Positions 42 through 7,215 of a DNA stretch of 7,215 nt are shown piece after piece. Origin of the DNA: Candidatus Rokuibacteriota bacterium (GTDB taxonomy: Bacteria; Methylomirabilota; Methylomirabilia; Rokubacteriales; JACPHL01). A program made the translations under genes and the position numbers. The notes below the pieces were generated by a model that saw nothing but the letters and a program-made list of their open reading frames with translations, ran no database searches and was not told the origin of the DNA. Location of the stretch: NCBI GenBank assembly GCA_016188625.1, contig JACPHL010000025.1, positions 1 through 7,215 on the forward strand, written 5' to 3'. Within the stretch, counting starts at the first letter, position 1, and each line of letters begins with the position of its first letter.

Positions 42-701
42 CTATCTCGAGCGGAGGAGCCCCGTGGAGAGGGCGTAGCGGACGAGGTCGGCGCGGCTCT
101 TGAGACCCAGCTTCTCCATCAGCCGGGCGCGGTAGGTCTCCACGGTCTTCACCGAGAGGCAGAGGCGGTCGGCGACCTGCTGGTTGGTGTGCCCCTGGGC
201 GATCAGGCAGAGGACCTCGCGCTCGCGCTCGGAGAGCGAGTCGCCGGGGACCTCGCCGCGGCCGCCGCGCGCCTTGCGTCCCAGGACCTCCTGCACCACG
301 GCGCCCGCGAGGGAGGGAGCCAGGTACGTCTCCCCCCGGTGCGTGATCCGGATGGCGGAGAGGAGCTCCGTGTCGGCGGCCCGCTTGAGCACGTACCCGG
401 ATCCGCCAGCGGCCAGCACGCTCCGGAGGTAGGCGGGGTCGTCGTGCATGGTGAGGGCGAGGACCCGGACCCTCGGGCAGGTCCGCCGGATCTGGGCTGT
501 GGCGTCGATCCCGCCCGCGCCCGGCATCGTGATGTCCATGAGGACCACGTCCGGCTGAAGCTCCCGGGCGAGGCGGAGCCCCTCCTCCCCGCTCGCGGCC
601 TCCCCCACCACCTCCATGTCGGGCTGGGCGTTGATCAGCATCCGGAGCCCGGCGCGGAGTACCGCGTGATCGTCCACCAGGAGGACCCGGATCCGGCCCA
701 C
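42..701 (-). CDS. NarL/FixJ-family response regulator (REC + LuxR-type HTH)
   Basis: A 219-residue two-component response regulator, the usual length for the NarL family. The receiver domain covers about residues 4-120. It has the acidic pair Asp10-Asp11, the phosphoacceptor Asp56 in VVLMDITMP, Thr84 in LALT and Lys106, so all phosphorylation and switch residues are present. After a Gly/Arg-rich linker (about 141-152), a LuxR-type helix-turn-helix spans about 157-215, with LSEREREVLCLIAQG and SVKTVETYRARLMEKLGL. By family knowledge, phosphorylation by the partner kinase promotes dimerisation and promoter binding. The start is GTG at 701, supported by a GAGGTGG ribosome site 4 bases upstream. 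The gene follows the histidine kinase after 97 bases, so that kinase (HisKA_3 type, the usual NarL partner) is its probable phosphodonor. The likely target is the promoter of the upstream oxidoreductase operon (inference). No defects were seen. Confidence 0.95.
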   Translation of the reverse strand: MGRIRVLLVDDHAVLRAGLRMLINAQPDMEVVGEAASGEEGLRLARELQPDVVLMDITMPGAGGIDATAQIRRTCPRVRVLALTMHDDPAYLRSVLAAGGSGYVLKRAADTELLSAIRITHRGETYLAPSLAGAVVQEVLGRKARGGRGEVPGDSLSEREREVLCLIAQGHTNQQVADRLCLSVKTVETYRARLMEKLGLKSRADLVRYALSTGLLRSR

Positions 702-705
702 TAAT

Positions 706-712
706 CCACCTC
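706..712 (-). promoter_or_regulatory. Ribosome binding site of the response regulator
   Basis: GAGGTGG on the minus strand, four bases (ATTA) ahead of the GTG at 701. It is the best Shine-Dalgarno match near any start in this window and supports choosing the GTG rather than a downstream codon. Confidence 0.6.
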
Positions 713-738
713 GGGGGGGAGCGGCGTCGCTCCTCCCC
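713..738 (-). other. Hairpin in the kinase-regulator gap, next to the ribosome site
   Basis: In the 97-base gap between the kinase stop and the regulator start, two 11-base arms (713-723 and 728-738) can pair around a 4-base loop. In the minus-strand transcript one internal pair is an A-C mismatch. The stem ends directly against the GAGGTGG ribosome site. It could modulate translation of the regulator or stabilise the message between the two genes. G/C homopolymer runs also make chance pairing likely, so function is speculative. The rest of the gap (739-798) shows no recognisable promoter. Confidence 0.25.
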
Positions 739-798
739 CAAGCCCCCCCACCACCCGGGTCCGAGGTCGGGCGGCAACAGGCAGAGGCAGGCGGCCCA

Positions 799-2241
799 TC
801 ACTCCTCCTCGCCCGTTCCCAGCGGGATCTCCGCGAAGATCGTGGTCCCGCGCCCGGGGGCGGACTCGATGGTGAGGCTCCCGCCGAGCAGGGCCGCCCG
901 CTCGCGCATGCCGTGGAGCCCCAGCCGGCGCTCCATCTCGCCGCGCGAGAGCACCTCCTCGACGTCGAAGCCGCGGCCGTCGTCCTCCACGATCAGGTGG
1001 AGGGATGCCCCCCGGTGCTCCAGGAGCACGCTCACCGTGGTGGCCCCGGCGTGCTTGGCGGTGTTGGTGAGGGCCTCCTGGACGATCCGGTAGACGGCGA
1101 TCTCCACCGGGCCCGGGAGCCGGTGGCCGTCGAACCCGCTAGCGTGGAGGTCCACCGCGATCCCCCGGCTCGCCCCGTACTCCTTCAGGTACCGCTCGAG
1201 AGCTGGGAGGAGCCCCAGGTCGTCGAGCACGCTCGGGCGGAGCCCGCGCGAGAGGTGGTGCACCTCCTCCAGGGTCCGCGCGGCCAGGCGGCGGAGCTCC
1301 CCGGCGCGCTCCCGCGCCGTCCCGAGGTCCGGCGCCTCCTCGATCAGGGCGAGCCCCACGGTGAGGGAGGTCAGTGATTGGCCGGTCTCGTCGTGGAGCT
1401 CCCGCGCGATCCGCCGCCGCTCCTCCTCCTGGGCGGTCATGACCTGCTCCAGCAGGCGCCGCCGGATCTCCTCGCGCCGCCGGAGCTCGTCCCGGAAGCG
1501 GCCCAGCCGCTCGGTCATCCGGGCGAAGCTCGCCCCCAGGCGCCCGATCTCGTCGTGGGCCCAGCTGGGCGGCCGCCAGCTGAAGTCGCCGAGCCCCAGG
1601 GCCTCGGTGGCCCGGGCCAGCTGGCTCAGCGGGCGCGCGAGGATTGTCGCCAGGCCGAACCCCAGCGCTGCCCCAACGACGAGCACCACCGAGGTGACGA
1701 GGACGATCCGCCGGATGTGGCCGGCGATGGTCGCCCGTATCTCCCCCTCAGACATCCCCAGGTGGACGGCCCCGGCGCGCCCCTCCAGGATCGGCACCGT
1801 GATGCTCCGGATCATCCCCGTCTCGCTCTCGAGCAGCCGGACCCGGTAGGCCTCCCCCTCCCCGAGCGGCGGGAGCATCAGCAGGTCCTCGGGCATCCCG
1901 CCACCGAAGGTGTGGACCAGGACGGCCCCGCTCCGGTCCGTGATGTACACGTAAAGGAGGTCCCTGTTGTCGCGGGCGGTCTCCCTGGCGAGGGTGTAGA
2001 GGGCGAAGAGCCGGTCGGTGAGGACCAGGTCCTGGCTCCGGCTCGCAAGGTTCACGGCGATGGCGATGCCGCGCTCCTGGAGCTCGCGCTCGAGCGTCGC
2101 CGTGAGCCCCCGGTGGACGACCAGGGTGACCGCCACCCCGAGCGTCAGGATCAGGCCGATGACGATCCCCATGATCTTGACGCGGATGGAGACCGCGCCC
2201 GCCACCGCCCAGAATCGCTGCCAGAAGCCGCCGGCCTCCAC
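799..2241 (-). CDS. Membrane sensor histidine kinase, NarX/HisKA_3 type with HAMP
   Basis: A 480-residue inner-membrane sensor kinase. A short cytoplasmic start leads to transmembrane helix 1 (about 21-43). An extracytoplasmic domain of about 130 residues follows (45-175), containing LLYVYITDRSGAVLVHTF, typical of single-Cache/PAS-like sensor folds. Transmembrane helix 2 covers about 178-200 and a HAMP linker about 200-253 (P204, DEIGRL). The dimerisation/phosphoacceptor helix is HisKA_3, with His283 in ARELHDETGQ. The ATPase domain has its N-box at YRIVQEALTNTAKHAG (Asn393), the G1 box at DDGRGF (420-425) and the G2 box at GLHGMRERA (441-449). All catalytic motifs are intact. The start is GTG at 2241, 3 bases after the lipoprotein stop, which suggests translational coupling; GGTGAG lies immediately upstream as a weak ribosome site. 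The expected partner is the NarL-type regulator that follows. Placement after a PhnD-like lipoprotein suggests that protein presents ligand to this kinase (inference). The signal sensed is unknown. Confidence 0.93.
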   Translation of the reverse strand: MEAGGFWQRFWAVAGAVSIRVKIMGIVIGLILTLGVAVTLVVHRGLTATLERELQERGIAIAVNLASRSQDLVLTDRLFALYTLARETARDNRDLLYVYITDRSGAVLVHTFGGGMPEDLLMLPPLGEGEAYRVRLLESETGMIRSITVPILEGRAGAVHLGMSEGEIRATIAGHIRRIVLVTSVVLVVGAALGFGLATILARPLSQLARATEALGLGDFSWRPPSWAHDEIGRLGASFARMTERLGRFRDELRRREEIRRRLLEQVMTAQEEERRRIARELHDETGQSLTSLTVGLALIEEAPDLGTARERAGELRRLAARTLEEVHHLSRGLRPSVLDDLGLLPALERYLKEYGASRGIAVDLHASGFDGHRLPGPVEIAVYRIVQEALTNTAKHAGATTVSVLLEHRGASLHLIVEDDGRGFDVEEVLSRGEMERRLGLHGMRERAALLGGSLTIESAPGRGTTIFAEIPLGTGEEE

Positions 2242-2244
2242 AGC

Positions 2245-3180
2245 TCACCGCCCGACGCGGGCCGCCATCTGCCGGATGGAGCGGAAGAGGTTCGGATCCA
2301 CGTCTACGAAGCGGTCGATGAGGAGCCACTCGAGGATCCGCTTCCCCTCCGGGTCCGCGTGCATCGAGAGCAGAAACTCCTTGAGGGTCCGCTTGAGGTC
2401 GGGGTCCAGGTCGGGGTGCACCGCCACGGGGGGGATCCCGTAGGGGCCCCAGCGCGCGATGATCCGGGTCTCGGCAGCCGCCTCCGGGTTGCGGGCGCGG
2501 AGGTAGTCGTAGACCAGGCTGTCCACCGCGGCCCCGTCCACCAGGCCGTCGGCCACGGCCAGGATCGAGTTGTCGTGGCTGTAGGTGAAAGCGGTGCGGC
2601 TGAAGAAGCGCTCGGGGGTCTCGCCCCGGACGGCGAGCTGGTAGACCGGGACCAGGCGGCCGGAGTTGGAGAGCGGGTCGGAGAAGGCGAAGCTCCTCCC
2701 CCGGAGGTCCTCCAGCCCCTCGGCGCGGCTCCGGCGGTTCACGATCAGGTAGGAGTAGTAGACCGTCTCCCCGCGGATCTGGGGGACCACGAGGGCCCGC
2801 ATGCCGAACTCCCGCTCCCCCTCCAGCAGGGCCCCCGCGCAGACGAAGGCCAGGTCGATCTCGCGGTTCTTCAGGAGGTCGTTGACCTCGGCGTAGGTGC
2901 TCCGCTGGAAGAGGCGGATGGGGCGGCCGAGGCGCCGGCCCATGTAGGTCAGGAGGTCGTGGTAGTCGTTGAGGGTCCGGCTGGGGGAGAGGACGCTCGC
3001 GATGGCCACCCGGAGCGGCGGCGGGGAGCCCCGGACGGCCTCGGGCCCCTGGGACGGCCGCACCGAGGCGACCTCCACCCGCCGCTCCAGGCTCACCCGG
3101 GCGACCTCGGGCGATTCCCCGCAGGCCCCGAGCGCCAGGGCGAGCAACAGGACACCTGCCCCGAAGATCCTCCCCCGCAT
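2245..3180 (-). CDS. PhnD-like (phosphate/phosphonate-binding superfamily) periplasmic lipoprotein, probable sensor
   Basis: A 311-residue exported lipoprotein. The N-terminus MRGRIFGAGVLLLALALGAC is a short basic n-region, a hydrophobic core and an LGAC lipobox, so mature Cys20 would be lipidated. The body is a type-2 periplasmic-binding fold of the PhnD family (PF12974-like). It contains STYAEVNDLLKNREIDLAFV (94-113), SDPLSNSGRLVPVY (167-180) and SHDNSILAVADGLVDGAAVD (201-220), which line the ligand cleft in this family. Cys114 is the only other cysteine. No ABC permease or ATPase gene is adjacent; the next genes are a kinase and a regulator. A sensing role, as for AioX or the PhnD-like domain of TtrS, is therefore more likely than transport (inference). 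ATG 3180 was chosen because it gives a clean lipoprotein signal, although its GGGGAGGAGG ribosome site is 14 bases away. ATG 3210 would add an acidic stretch before the signal. The oxidoreductase gene ends 44 bases upstream. Confidence 0.85.
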   Translation of the reverse strand: MRGRIFGAGVLLLALALGACGESPEVARVSLERRVEVASVRPSQGPEAVRGSPPPLRVAIASVLSPSRTLNDYHDLLTYMGRRLGRPIRLFQRSTYAEVNDLLKNREIDLAFVCAGALLEGEREFGMRALVVPQIRGETVYYSYLIVNRRSRAEGLEDLRGRSFAFSDPLSNSGRLVPVYQLAVRGETPERFFSRTAFTYSHDNSILAVADGLVDGAAVDSLVYDYLRARNPEAAAETRIIARWGPYGIPPVAVHPDLDPDLKRTLKEFLLSMHADPEGKRILEWLLIDRFVDVDPNLFRSIRQMAARVGR

Positions 3181-3224: not shown

Positions 3225-6200
3225 TCAGGCCTTGGTCACCTTCACCTGGGTGTCGTAGAAGACGGCGCTCCCGCCGGTCAGGTCGCTGCGCGTGGTGTTC
3301 TTGAGGACCGGGTCGATCCGAAGCGCCGCGTTGGCGTGGATGCCGGTCCCGCGGCGCGAGTCGCCCTTGATCACCTGCCCGTCGATGGTCACGTCGGAGG
3401 CGCCATACGCCCAGTGGCCGTGGCCCAACGAGTAGGCGATCACCCCGGGCCGGATCCCCTGGATCACCTTCACGCGGCCGACGATGGGATGCGACTTGCC
3501 GTTCCTGAAGTCCCACGCGCCGTCGGGGTTGGAGGCCGAGTGGACCCGGACCCGGTCGCCGTCCTTGAGGCCCCGGCGCTCGGCGTCGCGCTTGTTCATC
3601 AGCACGCTGTTTTCAGGGAGCAGGGCCAGGAGCCAGTAGTTGGCCACGGTCCTGGACTTGGTCTGCATGATCTCGCGGTAGGTGATGAGCCTGAGGTCGT
3701 AGCCCGCCTGCTCGTCGCCGAGGGGTCGCCCCAGGGCATCCGCGGGCGAGGGGACGTAGGCGGCGATCCCCGGGAACGGCTTGCCGGTCATCGAGTTCTT
3801 CGTCTTCGACGTCTTCTCCTGGTAGAGGTTGATGAGGGTCCCGTACTTGTTCTTCACCAGCTCGCCGTCGTAACCCTTGGCGAAGTCGTCGAAGCGGCCG
3901 CCCCGGTTCAGGAGGTAGACCACCTTGGGCCAGAGCTCGGCGCCCACGGTCTCCCGCCACCGCTGGGGGTCGAACACGGTCTTCGGGAGGTGCCGGCGGC
4001 CCTCCAGGAAGATCCGCATCTCCTCGGCCGAGGCGTCCGGGAGCGCCTGGTCGGGCTTGTCCCCGACGGCGAGGTTGGCCGCCATCCGGAGGTAGAGGTG
4101 GTCCGGGTGCGTGAAGGGCCTCCCGGGGCCGAACCCGTCGGGGCCGAACCCTGGGAGCCCGAGCTTCTCGGCCAGGGCCATCAACATCGACTCGAGGCCG
4201 ATCGGCACCTCCTGGCCGTACACCTTCACGAGTTCCGGGATCGGCGCGATCACCGGCTGCCGGACCGGTTGGACCTTCCAGATCATGTTGGGGTGCGAGC
4301 CGGCGAACTCCCACCGCTCCAGGTTGGAGAGGTCCGGGAAGATGTAGTCGGCGTACATGGAGGTCTCGCCGATCACGATGTCGGAGGCGACCACCAGGGG
4401 GATCTTCTCGACGTCCACGAGGATGTCGATGTTTGTCTGGCCGGCCGGGAGCGAGTAGACCGGCGACCCCATGTAGATGAAGAGCGCCTTCACCGGGTAG
4501 GGGTAGGCGTCGCCGATCGAGGGGATGATCTCCTGATAGATGTCCGAGGCCAGGGGGTACCACGGCCGCCTGGCCGGGTAGCCGGCGAAGAGGGTCGTGT
4601 CCTCGTACTTGTCGCCGTGCCGGATGACGCTGATCCCGAAGGGATTGAGTCTCCCTTCGATCTTGGCCACCGGGAACGGCTGTGCCCACTCGGCCTCGGT
4701 CCCGTCGGGCTGCTTGATCTTGTCGGTCTTCCCGCCAGCGGCGTCGTAGGTGCTCGCCTTGACCAGCCCACCCTTCCAGTCGTAGTTGCCGATCAGGAGG
4801 TTCAGGGTGTACCAGGCGAAGACCTGGTAGAAGCCGTTGGTGTGCTGCGAGACCCCCCGGTGGATGTCCGCCACGGCGCGCTTGCCGTGGCTGGTGAACT
4901 CCCGGGCCAGCTCGGCGATGTCGCGGGCCCGGATACCGGCCAGGGCGGCCCACTCGTCGATGGTCCTGGCGAAGGCGTTCTCCTGGAGGATCTGGAGCCC
5001 GGACTTCACGGGGATGCCGTTGATCTCGGTGCTCACCAGCAGCTCGCCCTCGACCGGCTCCTTCTCCGAGTAGGGGTCGAAGGGGACCGCCTGGCCGCCC
5101 TTCCACACGACGAACGGGTCGAACTCGTACGGCGTCTCCTCCCCGGTCTTCCTGTCCTTGTGGACGCGCTTCTCCTTGGGCAGGCCGATCTCAGAGGCGC
5201 GCAGGAACCCGCCCGGCTGACCCTTCTCGAGCTTCACGAGCCAGGCCGCGTTGCACCACGTGGGCTCGCCGTCGGCCTTGGCCGCCCCCTTGTTGGCGTT
5301 GGCCAGGTAACGGCCGTCGTAGCGCTGGTGCTCGAGGACCCACCGGATCATCCCGAGGGCCATCGCCCCCTCGCCGCCCGGCTGGATCGGCACCCAGCGC
5401 CACGCCTTGGCCGCGGTCTTCGAGGCCCGCGGATCCACGACGGCGAACTTGAGATCCCCGTCCACCAGGCGCTGCGCAATCCGGCTCGCCCGGTTCGTCG
5501 GGCCGTAGTTCCCCTCGAAGGGGGAGGCGCCCACGAAGATGATGAACTCCGCCGACTGCTGGTCGGCCTGCCAGTAGAACTTCGCCCCCTTGGTCCACTT
5601 CATCTTCCGGTCTTTGTCGTCGTAAACGAACTGCTCGCTCATCGCCTTGCCGGTGAAGTAGAGCGAGCCCTGGCAGACCGTGGTGTGGCCGTGGGCGTTG
5701 GTCGAGCCGAACCCCGCCTCGACGAACCGCCGGATCAGCTCGCCGCGCCCGCCCTTGAGACGCCCCCACATGAAGACGAACTGGTTGTTCTTGGGGCCGA
5801 GGTCGGGGTGGTTCGGGTCGATGAGGTGCTTGAGCGCGTCCCGGTACTTGGCCTTGAACTCGGCCAGCGCCATCTCCTTCTTGGCGACCTTCTTGGCGTC
5901 TTCGGCCAGCTCCTTCATCAGCTTGGGATCCCGGATCGCCCGGAGGTCGCGCAGGCCCTCCACCTTCCGGTTCTCCTCGCCGGGGACCTGCGCGAAGAGG
6001 AAGCCGCCCTCGACGATCTCCTTGACCGCCTGGTCGAAGGGGATCGAGGTCCACTTGTTCTCGCCCCGCTTCCCCGCCCGCTTCAGGACCTTGACGATCC
6101 GGTAGGGGTCGTAGGCGGTCTGGATCGCCGCCTGGCCCTTCGGGCAGAGGAGCCCGTCCACGGCGGCGACCTGGGTCACCGGGGTCTTGTAGGGGAGGTG

Positions 6201-6376
6201 CGGGACCATGTTCCAGGGCGAGTAGGGGTTCCCGTCGATCTTGGCGATAAGGCCGTTCTCGATCTTCACCTTGATCCCGCACTGGGTGTTGCACTGCTGG
6301 CAGACGGAGTACAGGATGTTCTCCGGCCGGGCCAGGGGGTACTCCGCGGTGGGCGTCAGGTAGTCGCCCGCCTCGG
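3225..6376 (-). CDS. Molybdopterin oxidoreductase catalytic subunit (TtrA/PsrA/ArrA branch), 5' end missing
   Basis: About 1,050 readable codons of a DMSO-reductase-family bis-MGD enzyme. The N-terminal 4Fe-4S motif CQQCNTQCG has Cys codons at 6302-6300, 6293-6291 and 6281-6279, and the fourth Cys is in LLCPKG (6146-6144). The sequence GHTTVCQGS (Cys codon 5675-5673) occupies the position of the Mo ligand in Cys-type enzymes. Further family motifs are [56 protein letters not shown] and the C-terminal [11 protein letters not shown]. The length is close to TtrA (about 1,000 residues) and longer than typical ArrA. A Lys/Glu-rich insert lies at about 5835-5970. The first usable start codon, GTG 6269, is not credible because it removes three cluster cysteines. 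The frame stays open upstream until a TAG at 6392-6390, which lies inside the inverted repeat. The true start, and any Tat signal, are lost there. It probably acts with the NrfD-type subunit upstream in oxyanion or sulfur-compound respiration; the substrate is undetermined. Confidence 0.85.
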
Positions 6377-6476
6377 CCGGGGCGGGCGACTACCTGACGC
6401 CCACCGCGGAGTACCCCCTGGCCCGGCCGGAGAACATCCTGTACTCCGTCTGCCAGCAGTGCAACACCCAGTGCGG
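6277..6476. repeat. 200-base near-perfect palindrome (100-base arms) between membrane and catalytic subunit genes
   Basis: Bases 6277-6376 are the reverse complement of 6377-6476, pairing position i with 12753-i. The only mismatched pair is 6373/6380, and the centre is the self-complementary CGGCCG (6374-6379), so there is effectively no loop. Identity stops abruptly outside: 6477 against 6276 no longer pairs, and what follows is unrelated coding sequence on each side. The left arm is genuine molybdoenzyme coding sequence, including three cluster cysteines. The right arm repeats it inverted and interrupts the NrfD-type frame. Long spacerless palindromes are cleaved by SbcCD-type nucleases and are unstable in bacteria, so a fold-back amplification or assembly chimera is the leading explanation. 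Confidence 0.95.
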
Positions 6477-7215
6477 CGTGGTTTCTCAGGAACGGCAGGA
6501 CCTCGATGGCCAGAACGAAGGCCAGGGCCGCGACCCCGATCACACCGACGGCCAGGAACCACTCCGTGGCGCTCGGGAAGTACGTGACGGCGAGCCGCGC
6601 GTGGACGAAGGCCTCCGGCAGTGTCCGGAACTCCGGGATCGCCAGGCCGGGGAGCACCAGGTTCTGCTTGGTCCCGGCGTACCCGAGGGCGATGAGGAGC
6701 CCCGCCAGGCCGAGCCAGGTCGGACGGGCGCCCGACGGCAGGGCCAGGAGGAGGAGCGGGAGCGCCAGGCCCGCCGCGAGCTGGACGATCCAGAAGACCC
6801 ACCAGTGCTCGCCGAACATCATCAGGCGGTAGGCCTCCACCACGGCCGGGATCCCGGTGTAGAGGGTGACGGAGATCTCCGCGAACTCCACGACGATGTT
6901 GAGCCCGAGCAGGCCTAGGAGCGACATCCGGAGAAAGCGGGTCGCGTCCGCGTCCTCGGCGTCGCTGGCCCACCGCTTGAAGGCCACGGCGGCGAACGCC
7001 ACCAGCCCCATCCCGGAGAGGAACGCCGAGAAGAGGAACCGGACCGGGAGGATCCCGGAGTTCCAGTACGGCTTGGAGCCGAGGACGCCGAAGAGGGCCC
7101 CCTCGCCTCCACCGAAGGTGACGACCAGGGCGAAGCCGGCGAAGGAGAGCCACTTGAGGGCCGCGCGGCTCTCCCGGGCCATGGCGACCAGCATGGCGAC
7201 GAGCACCAGCGCGTA
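6477..7215 (-). CDS. NrfD/PsrC-family membrane subunit, partial at both ends
   Basis: About 246 codons of a hydrophobic integral membrane protein. The frame is already open at the right edge (Tyr-Ala-Leu...), so the start lies outside the window; GTG 7206 and the ATGs just after it are probably internal. At least six membrane helices are visible, at approximately 7161-7110, 7053-6980, 6933-6855, 6807-6737, 6720-6667 and 6564-6487. Family-like features include GSKPYWNSGILPVRFLFSAF and VVEFAEISVTLYTG, as in PsrC/TtrC/NrfD subunits that oxidise quinol and pass electrons to a ferredoxin-like subunit. The last native residues appear to be EVLPFLRNH. Beyond 6476 the frame runs into the inverted repeat and then antisense of the next gene without a stop, which is spurious. 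The real C-terminus is therefore missing. Its position before the molybdoenzyme gene matches the ttrC-ttrA order. The family call is firm; the specific subfamily is not. Confidence 0.82.

Follow-up and report, generated by a model that had tools for sequence, protein, structure and literature searches.

Organization of the locus

The window, i.e. the whole stretch of 7,215 nucleotides that was analysed, is the entire contig C82 of an 84%-complete metagenome-assembled genome of a Candidatus Rokuibacteriota bacterium. It encodes a phosphonate-binding-like lipoprotein (X), a sensor histidine kinase (S), and a response regulator (R) next to a respiratory-type molybdoenzyme. All genes are located on the minus strand in the order NrfD-like membrane anchor, TtrA-like molybdoenzyme, X, S, and R (Table 1). 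The gene for X starts 44 bp past the stop codon of the enzyme gene, and S starts with a GTG codon 3 bases beyond the stop codon of X. Given these short gaps, the enzyme, X, and S are likely transcribed together. A search of Rfam gave no match.

An earlier note on this DNA had described a lipoprotein, a HisKA_3 kinase, and a NarL-type regulator, and all three were recovered where it had placed them, with matching Pfam domains and with the same 3-base gap between lipoprotein and kinase. Its statement that the regulator follows the kinase holds for the gene order, but the two genes are not directly adjacent, as a 97-bp repeat intervenes. The upstream "ttrC-ttrA-like pair" is present as an NrfD protein and a TtrA-like molybdoenzyme; the designation "ttr" reflects mere resemblance, with the enzyme missing the TtrA cut-off.

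Table 1. Positions of genes, domains, and repeats in the window
Feature	Positions	Strand	Basis
X, AioX/ArrX-type oxyanion-binding lipoprotein, 311 aa	2245..3180	-	Pfam, PDB matches, AlphaFold2 model, pocket mapping
S, sensor histidine kinase, 480 aa	799..2241	-	Pfam, homologue alignment, AlphaFold2 model
Periplasmic single Cache domain of S, residues 47-176	1714..2103	-	Pfam sCache_3_2 1e-8
HisKA_3 dimerisation/phosphotransfer domain of S, residues 274-339	1225..1422	-	Pfam 5e-14
R, NarL/FixJ-type response regulator, 219 aa	42..701	-	Pfam Response_reg 2e-27, GerE 5e-21
Interspersed hairpin repeat of ~97 bp between S stop and R start	702..798	-	Genome copies, junctions of relatives
Catalytic subunit, TtrA-like DMSO-reductase-family molybdoenzyme	3225..6269	-	NCBIfam TtrA, Pfam Molybdopterin/Molydop_binding
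NrfD/PsrC-like membrane anchor, 5' end beyond contig	6481..7215	-	Pfam NrfD 3e-17, relatives
Inverted repeat, 100-bp arms, zero spacer, one mismatch	6277..6476	strandless	Sequence, relatives

The binding protein X

X belongs to the Phosphonate-bd family (PF12974; Pfam E-value 1e-64) and has a lipobox (LGAC) at residues 17-20. Its best sequence matches in the PDB are ArrX (1e-60) and AioX (8e-41), whereas the transporter proteins PhnD and PtxB match at 1e-18 and weaker. ArrX and AioX are also the top fold matches in the PDB of an AlphaFold2 model of X (pLDDT 91.9, built from 55 aligned homologues). The fold alone separates signalling from transporter types only little, as the Z scores for AioX (36.2), ArrX (35.2), and PhnD (33.6) are nearly equal. 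The pocket residues Y96, C114, Y141, S171, S173, H202, and D220 of X correspond to Y88, C106, Y131, S161, S163, H192, and D210 of AioX, and all seven are identical. Among the 53 X proteins adjoining HisKA_3 kinases, the pocket Cys is conserved in all and the Asp in 52, while two remote, ABC-linked relatives have His and Phe in place of the Cys and the Asp. In the crystal structure of AioX, Cys106 links arsenite, and the hydrogen bonds of Cys106 and Asp210 are specific to AioX relative to PhnD; the pocket residues by themselves do not determine selectivity (PMC5908839). By sequence, fold, and pocket, X is a member of the AioX/ArxX/ArrX signalling branch of the PhnD superfamily.

In one of the related loci (L039), X lies beside a type II DMSO-reductase-like enzyme, and most of the AioX pocket is gone (F C R C P H D), which suggests that this protein may bind a different ligand. 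The lipobox was considered as a mark of X proteins adjoining HisKA_3 kinases and was discarded: it was found in 33 of 53 such proteins and in 20 of 36 others, counts that depend on uncurated start codons.

The kinase S and the regulator R

S consists of sCache_3_2, HAMP, HisKA_3, and HATPase_c domains according to Pfam, and its AlphaFold2 model has a first transmembrane segment, a periplasmic cache, a second transmembrane segment, and HAMP. The transmitter resembles that of DesK. His283 is the predicted phospho-acceptor, and His283 and Asp284 are invariant in 25 homologues. R combines a receiver domain with a helix-turn-helix domain of the LuxR/GerE type. The TtrR model reached 70 bits on R (cut-off 290), and the models for NarX and NarL scored far under their cut-offs on the window proteins. 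AioS and two related plasmid kinases are assigned to HisKA in Pfam, and AioR has a Sigma54_activat domain. The earlier suspicion that the kinase class may differ from those of the known trios was borne out against AioS and an ArxS-like kinase, which have HisKA where S has HisKA_3; ArrS of Chrysiogenes may or may not differ in this respect.

Recurrence of the trio and its linkage to molybdoenzymes

A scan of 84,980 genomes yielded 320 relatives, of which the 79 best loci, a selection biased towards the query, were read. Within the phylum, X is present at E < 1e-30 in 14 of 95 genomes. With contig ends excluded, the gene after X encodes a HisKA_3 kinase in 53 places and a HisKA kinase in 33, and was unclassified against the reference set in three. 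A NarL-type regulator comes next in 51 of the 51 HisKA_3 places with room for it; in the 50 places other than the window, kinase and regulator genes mostly overlap or abut. The trio was found in Chloroflexota, Methylomirabilota/Rokuibacteriota, Bacillota, and Zixibacteria, and the genome studied here has a paralogous X-S-R trio on contig C221 beside an ArrA/PhsA-like enzyme. As the order X-S-R recurs on C221 and in tens of further loci, the association of the three genes is beyond chance.

The family name of X in Pfam would also fit a transport role, in which X would serve as the binding protein for an ABC transporter, the remaining transporter genes would lie elsewhere, and the position of X before a kinase would be incidental. 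ABC permease and ATPase genes are missing from the window, as the earlier note had remarked, although on so short a contig this has little weight either way; in the related set, none lies directly after X except in the remote locus L041, whose binding protein has 32% identity and is without the pocket Cys and Asp. A consistent linkage of the lipoprotein to ABC genes and not to the kinase, named in the earlier note as the pattern that would speak against a sensory role, was sought and not seen: in different phyla, a kinase gene comes directly after X at almost every place where the contig extends far enough. X is furthermore nearest to the signalling proteins AioX and ArrX and co-evolves with the sensor half of the kinase (see below). 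On the basis of neighbourhoods and pocket, the transporter explanation was ruled out, and we regard it as extremely improbable.

Linkage to molybdoenzymes was defined by a Pfam Molybdopterin gene within 10 kb. In 13 genomes of the phylum, a molybdoenzyme is encoded near 10 of 11 HisKA_3 kinases preceded by X, compared with 4 of 22 without X (Fisher p = 1e-4). This dependence on X upholds the earlier proposal that the trio is dedicated to the respiratory enzyme. In the wider set, a molybdoenzyme is found near 40 of 53 HisKA_3 places but only 6 of 33 HisKA places. The enzymes beside the trios are TtrA-like, PhsA-like, ArrA-like, Arx-like, and in one case type II DMSO-reductase-like, all under the curated cut-offs where tested. 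Even among the window trio and the four trios closest to it (59-72% identity in X), the neighbouring enzymes are TtrA-like, PhsA-like, and ArrA-like. The window enzyme itself reaches 441 bits with the NCBIfam TtrA model (cut-off 1750) and 95 bits with the ArrA model (cut-off 1600), and is 62% identical to the enzyme adjoining the trio in L074/L087. The names TtrA, PhsA, and ArrA were rejected for this enzyme, each curated model scoring under its cut-off.

Several related loci are organized differently. Methanoperedens-type archaeal loci (L065, L083, L088, and others) encode the same kind of X together with HisKA kinases; some of them have X-S-R and an ArrA-like enzyme, and many have large kinases and no enzyme nearby. 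Tandem double trios (X-S-R-X-S-R) precede enzyme genes in the Chloroflexota loci L084, L087, L098, and L118. In L045, a close relative (positions 7216-7737 and 11429-13178), the 139 C-terminal residues of the TtrA-like enzyme are encoded directly after the regulator, and a separate enzyme start is located at the contig end, which represents either a tandem copy or an assembly problem.

Possible modular evolution of the trio

On a tree of 99 X proteins, the kinase class changes only twice. Evolutionary distances were compared within the HisKA_3 loci using an H-box-anchored cut of the transmitter; the correlations are uncorrected for shared whole-genome ancestry. Distances between X proteins correlate with those between the sensor halves of the kinases (r = 0.65; 0.54 without near copies), and distances between transmitter halves correlate with those between regulators (r = 0.78; 0.74 without near copies), whereas the sensor and transmitter halves of the same kinase gene are less well correlated (r = 0.36; 0.33 without near copies). 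X and the sensor half evolve jointly. A cruder cut of the transmitter agrees with these values. A cut made with phmmer had given r = 0.28 for transmitter and regulator and about 0 for sensor and transmitter; it was judged to contain partial domains and was replaced by the H-box-anchored one.

The loci L034, L036, and L037, with HisKA_3 kinases and NarL-type regulators, are sister to L035, which has a HisKA kinase and an NtrC-like regulator. Between the two groups, the sensor halves are 47-51% identical while the transmitters belong to different classes. In a tree of X plus sensor half, a single clade of HisKA_3 loci is rejected by the approximately unbiased (AU) test (p = 0.001). One clean split of the kinase classes on the X tree was discarded: the tree requires two changes, and the split is rejected by X combined with the sensor half, though not formally by X alone. 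These comparisons suggest that the trio may be composed of two modules, one comprising X and the sensor half of the kinase and one comprising the transmitter half and the regulator, with one apparent swap.

Proposed mechanism and nature of the ligand

Judged from sequence and predicted structure, the trio is quite probably a three-component system of the AioXSR design that controls the operon of a respiratory molybdoenzyme via an oxyanion-triggered phosphorelay. X would close round a small oxyanion outside the cell, and ligand-loaded X would then dock on the periplasmic Cache domain of S. This domain is proposed as the docking partner of X, and the co-variation of the sensor half with X is consistent with such a contact. 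The signal would be transmitted via HAMP to the HisKA_3 transmitter of the DesK/NarX class, which would phosphorylate the NarL-type R. R, in turn, may activate the operon that contains both the trio and the enzyme gene.

The ligand is most likely the substrate or product of the neighbouring enzyme, namely an arsenic or sulfur oxyanion. A specific arsenic sensor like ArrXSR or AioXSR is one possible form of such a system, although on balance we would not expect it; the TtrA-like enzyme would then be an unrecognised arsenic oxidoreductase or be co-regulated with arsenic resistance. The pocket of X, identical to that of AioX including the counterpart of the arsenite-linking Cys106 (PMC5908839), points in this direction, as do arsenic genes in 7 of 48 HisKA_3 loci. 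Two of these loci, L087 and L118, encode ACR3 with a score above the curated cut-off and have enzymes that share 59-62% identity with that of the window; in L116, ArsA/ACR3 genes lie just upstream of X. In addition, the enzyme next to L044, a trio closely related to that of the window, is ArrA-like (1056 bits, cut-off 1600). However, X proteins with this pocket also adjoin other enzymes, among them PhsA-like ones, and occur in HisKA loci that have no molybdoenzyme; the published finding that selectivity is not set by the pocket residues alone (PMC5908839) weakens the argument from identity. Most HisKA_3 loci have no arsenic gene, and the contig of the window is too short to show any.

Alternatively, the trio may sense a sulfur oxyanion such as thiosulfate, tetrathionate, or similar and control a sulfur-compound reductase, with separate proteins doing the job of the fused TtrS; we give this reading the same weight as the arsenic one. 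TtrA or PhsA are often the best curated models for the neighbouring enzymes, the closest solved structure to the window enzyme is a "thiosulfate reductase" (2vpw), and tetrathionate is sensed by TtrS via a PhnD-like domain (PMC5408782). Nevertheless, all of these enzyme matches are far under the curated cut-offs, and X has a pocket of the AioX/ArrX type with its Cys, in a tree that is without TtrS. An unlikely third explanation is that the trio reports phosphate or other phosphorus oxyanion status and tunes the enzyme to the nutrient state instead of to its substrate. ArrX binds phosphate besides arsenate (PMC5908839), and the trio is kept while the enzyme type varies freely, but the linkage is to molybdoenzymes; no systematic search for pho genes was made.

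Extending the proposed oxyanion-triggered system beyond the window, it is plausible, though we would stop short of calling it probable, that the HisKA_3/NarL form is the commonest general sensor of oxyanion respiration. In such a sensor, an input module (X plus Cache-HAMP) and an output module (transmitter plus regulator) would be exchangeable and recombined within the kinase gene, many chemically different molybdoenzymes would be under its control, and the arsenic trios would be one specialised branch. Several observations weigh against the mechanism proposed for the window trio. The enzyme type changes 21 times on the X tree among 50 labelled loci, only slightly fewer than the mean of 26.6 after shuffling; with such frequent switches, the trio may sense something besides the substrate of its neighbour. 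The swap of kinase halves rests on one small clade, and for X alone the same AU test gave p = 0.096. The split of kinase classes is confounded with taxonomy, HisKA_3 occurring mostly in Chloroflexota and HisKA mostly in Methanoperedens-type archaea. Finally, the 79 loci were the top-matching ones among 320, with a bias towards the query.

Repeats and gene ends on the contig

The 97-bp repeat between S and R (repeat match 696-811) forms a hairpin and has about 20 copies in the genome. Copies are present in L004-L008 and L128-L141. Of 20 copies examined, most lie exactly between the TGA stop of one gene and the GTG start (once ATG) of the next gene in the same direction, always with a single orientation, and the Shine-Dalgarno-like motif AAGGTGG precedes the downstream start. 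Among 59 genomes of the order, 20 have related hairpin cores. The repeat is apparently an intercistronic element that carries along, or keeps intact, the stop codon of one gene and the start codon of the next. In the relatives, the repeat is missing from the kinase/regulator junctions, which are TGATG-like or abutting; the conserved trio does not include it. The contig end (1-43) is a different short GC-rich repeat, matched about 20 more times in the genome, and probably marks the point where the assembly broke.

The inverted repeat between enzyme and anchor gene is probably an assembly or fold-back joint that replaces a few hundred bp. The reading frame of the enzyme runs on into the palindrome arm, to about position 6376, and the true N-terminus is absent. 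The truncation of the enzyme amounts to only about 60-100 N-terminal residues. Compared with L074 and L087, roughly 35-65 of them are missing even if the enzyme is read to the palindrome centre, and the NrfD protein is short of a few C-terminal residues at the palindrome.

Comparison with known systems

Searches of the literature, which covered open-licence papers only, did not reveal a description of a comparable HisKA_3 trio. AioX and its orthologues have been described as the sole signalling members of their binding-protein family (PMC5908839). From the loci compared here, such signalling proteins seem to be much more widely distributed, extending to uncultured lineages and archaea, mostly beside enzymes of unassigned substrate. 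If this is true, the ligand of each X would be a direct, purifiable handle on the substrate of the enzyme beside it, and kinase halves swapped in nature would provide ready-made pairs to study and build oxyanion biosensors.

The nitrate system NarX-NarL shares with the window the HisKA_3 transmitter class, the NarL-type regulator, and, if the mechanism proposed here is right, the control of a respiratory molybdoenzyme, but has no separate binding protein. TtrS-TtrR is similar in its PhnD-like sensing, the adjoining TtrA-type enzyme, and the LuxR-family regulator; in TtrS, however, the PhnD-like domain is within the kinase (PMC5408782), whereas the window encodes a separate lipoprotein and a kinase with its own Cache domain.

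AioX-AioS-AioR, known from arsenite oxidation in NT-26, and ArxX-ArxS-ArxR resemble the window trio in gene order, the fold of X, the seven-residue pocket, and a membrane kinase with HAMP. In contrast to the sCache-HAMP-HisKA_3 architecture of S, AioS has HAMP-HisKA without an sCache match, and AioR has a sigma-54 domain where R is of the NarL type. The X of the window is, unlike its counterparts in these systems, a lipoprotein, and the neighbouring enzyme is neither AioA nor ArxA. The closest solved relative of X is ArrX (42% identity, E 1e-60, fold E 6e-33) from ArrX-ArrS-ArrR of Chrysiogenes arsenatis, a trio from arsenate respiration that likewise lies beside a respiratory molybdoenzyme, although the window enzyme is TtrA-like and not ArrA. 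According to PMC5908839, ArrR is CitB-like and its DNA-binding part resembles FixJ; compared by this published description and not by alignment, it tends, like R, towards the NarL type. For a trio of this design, ArrR of Chrysiogenes is a published precedent of a NarL-like regulator (PMC5908839).

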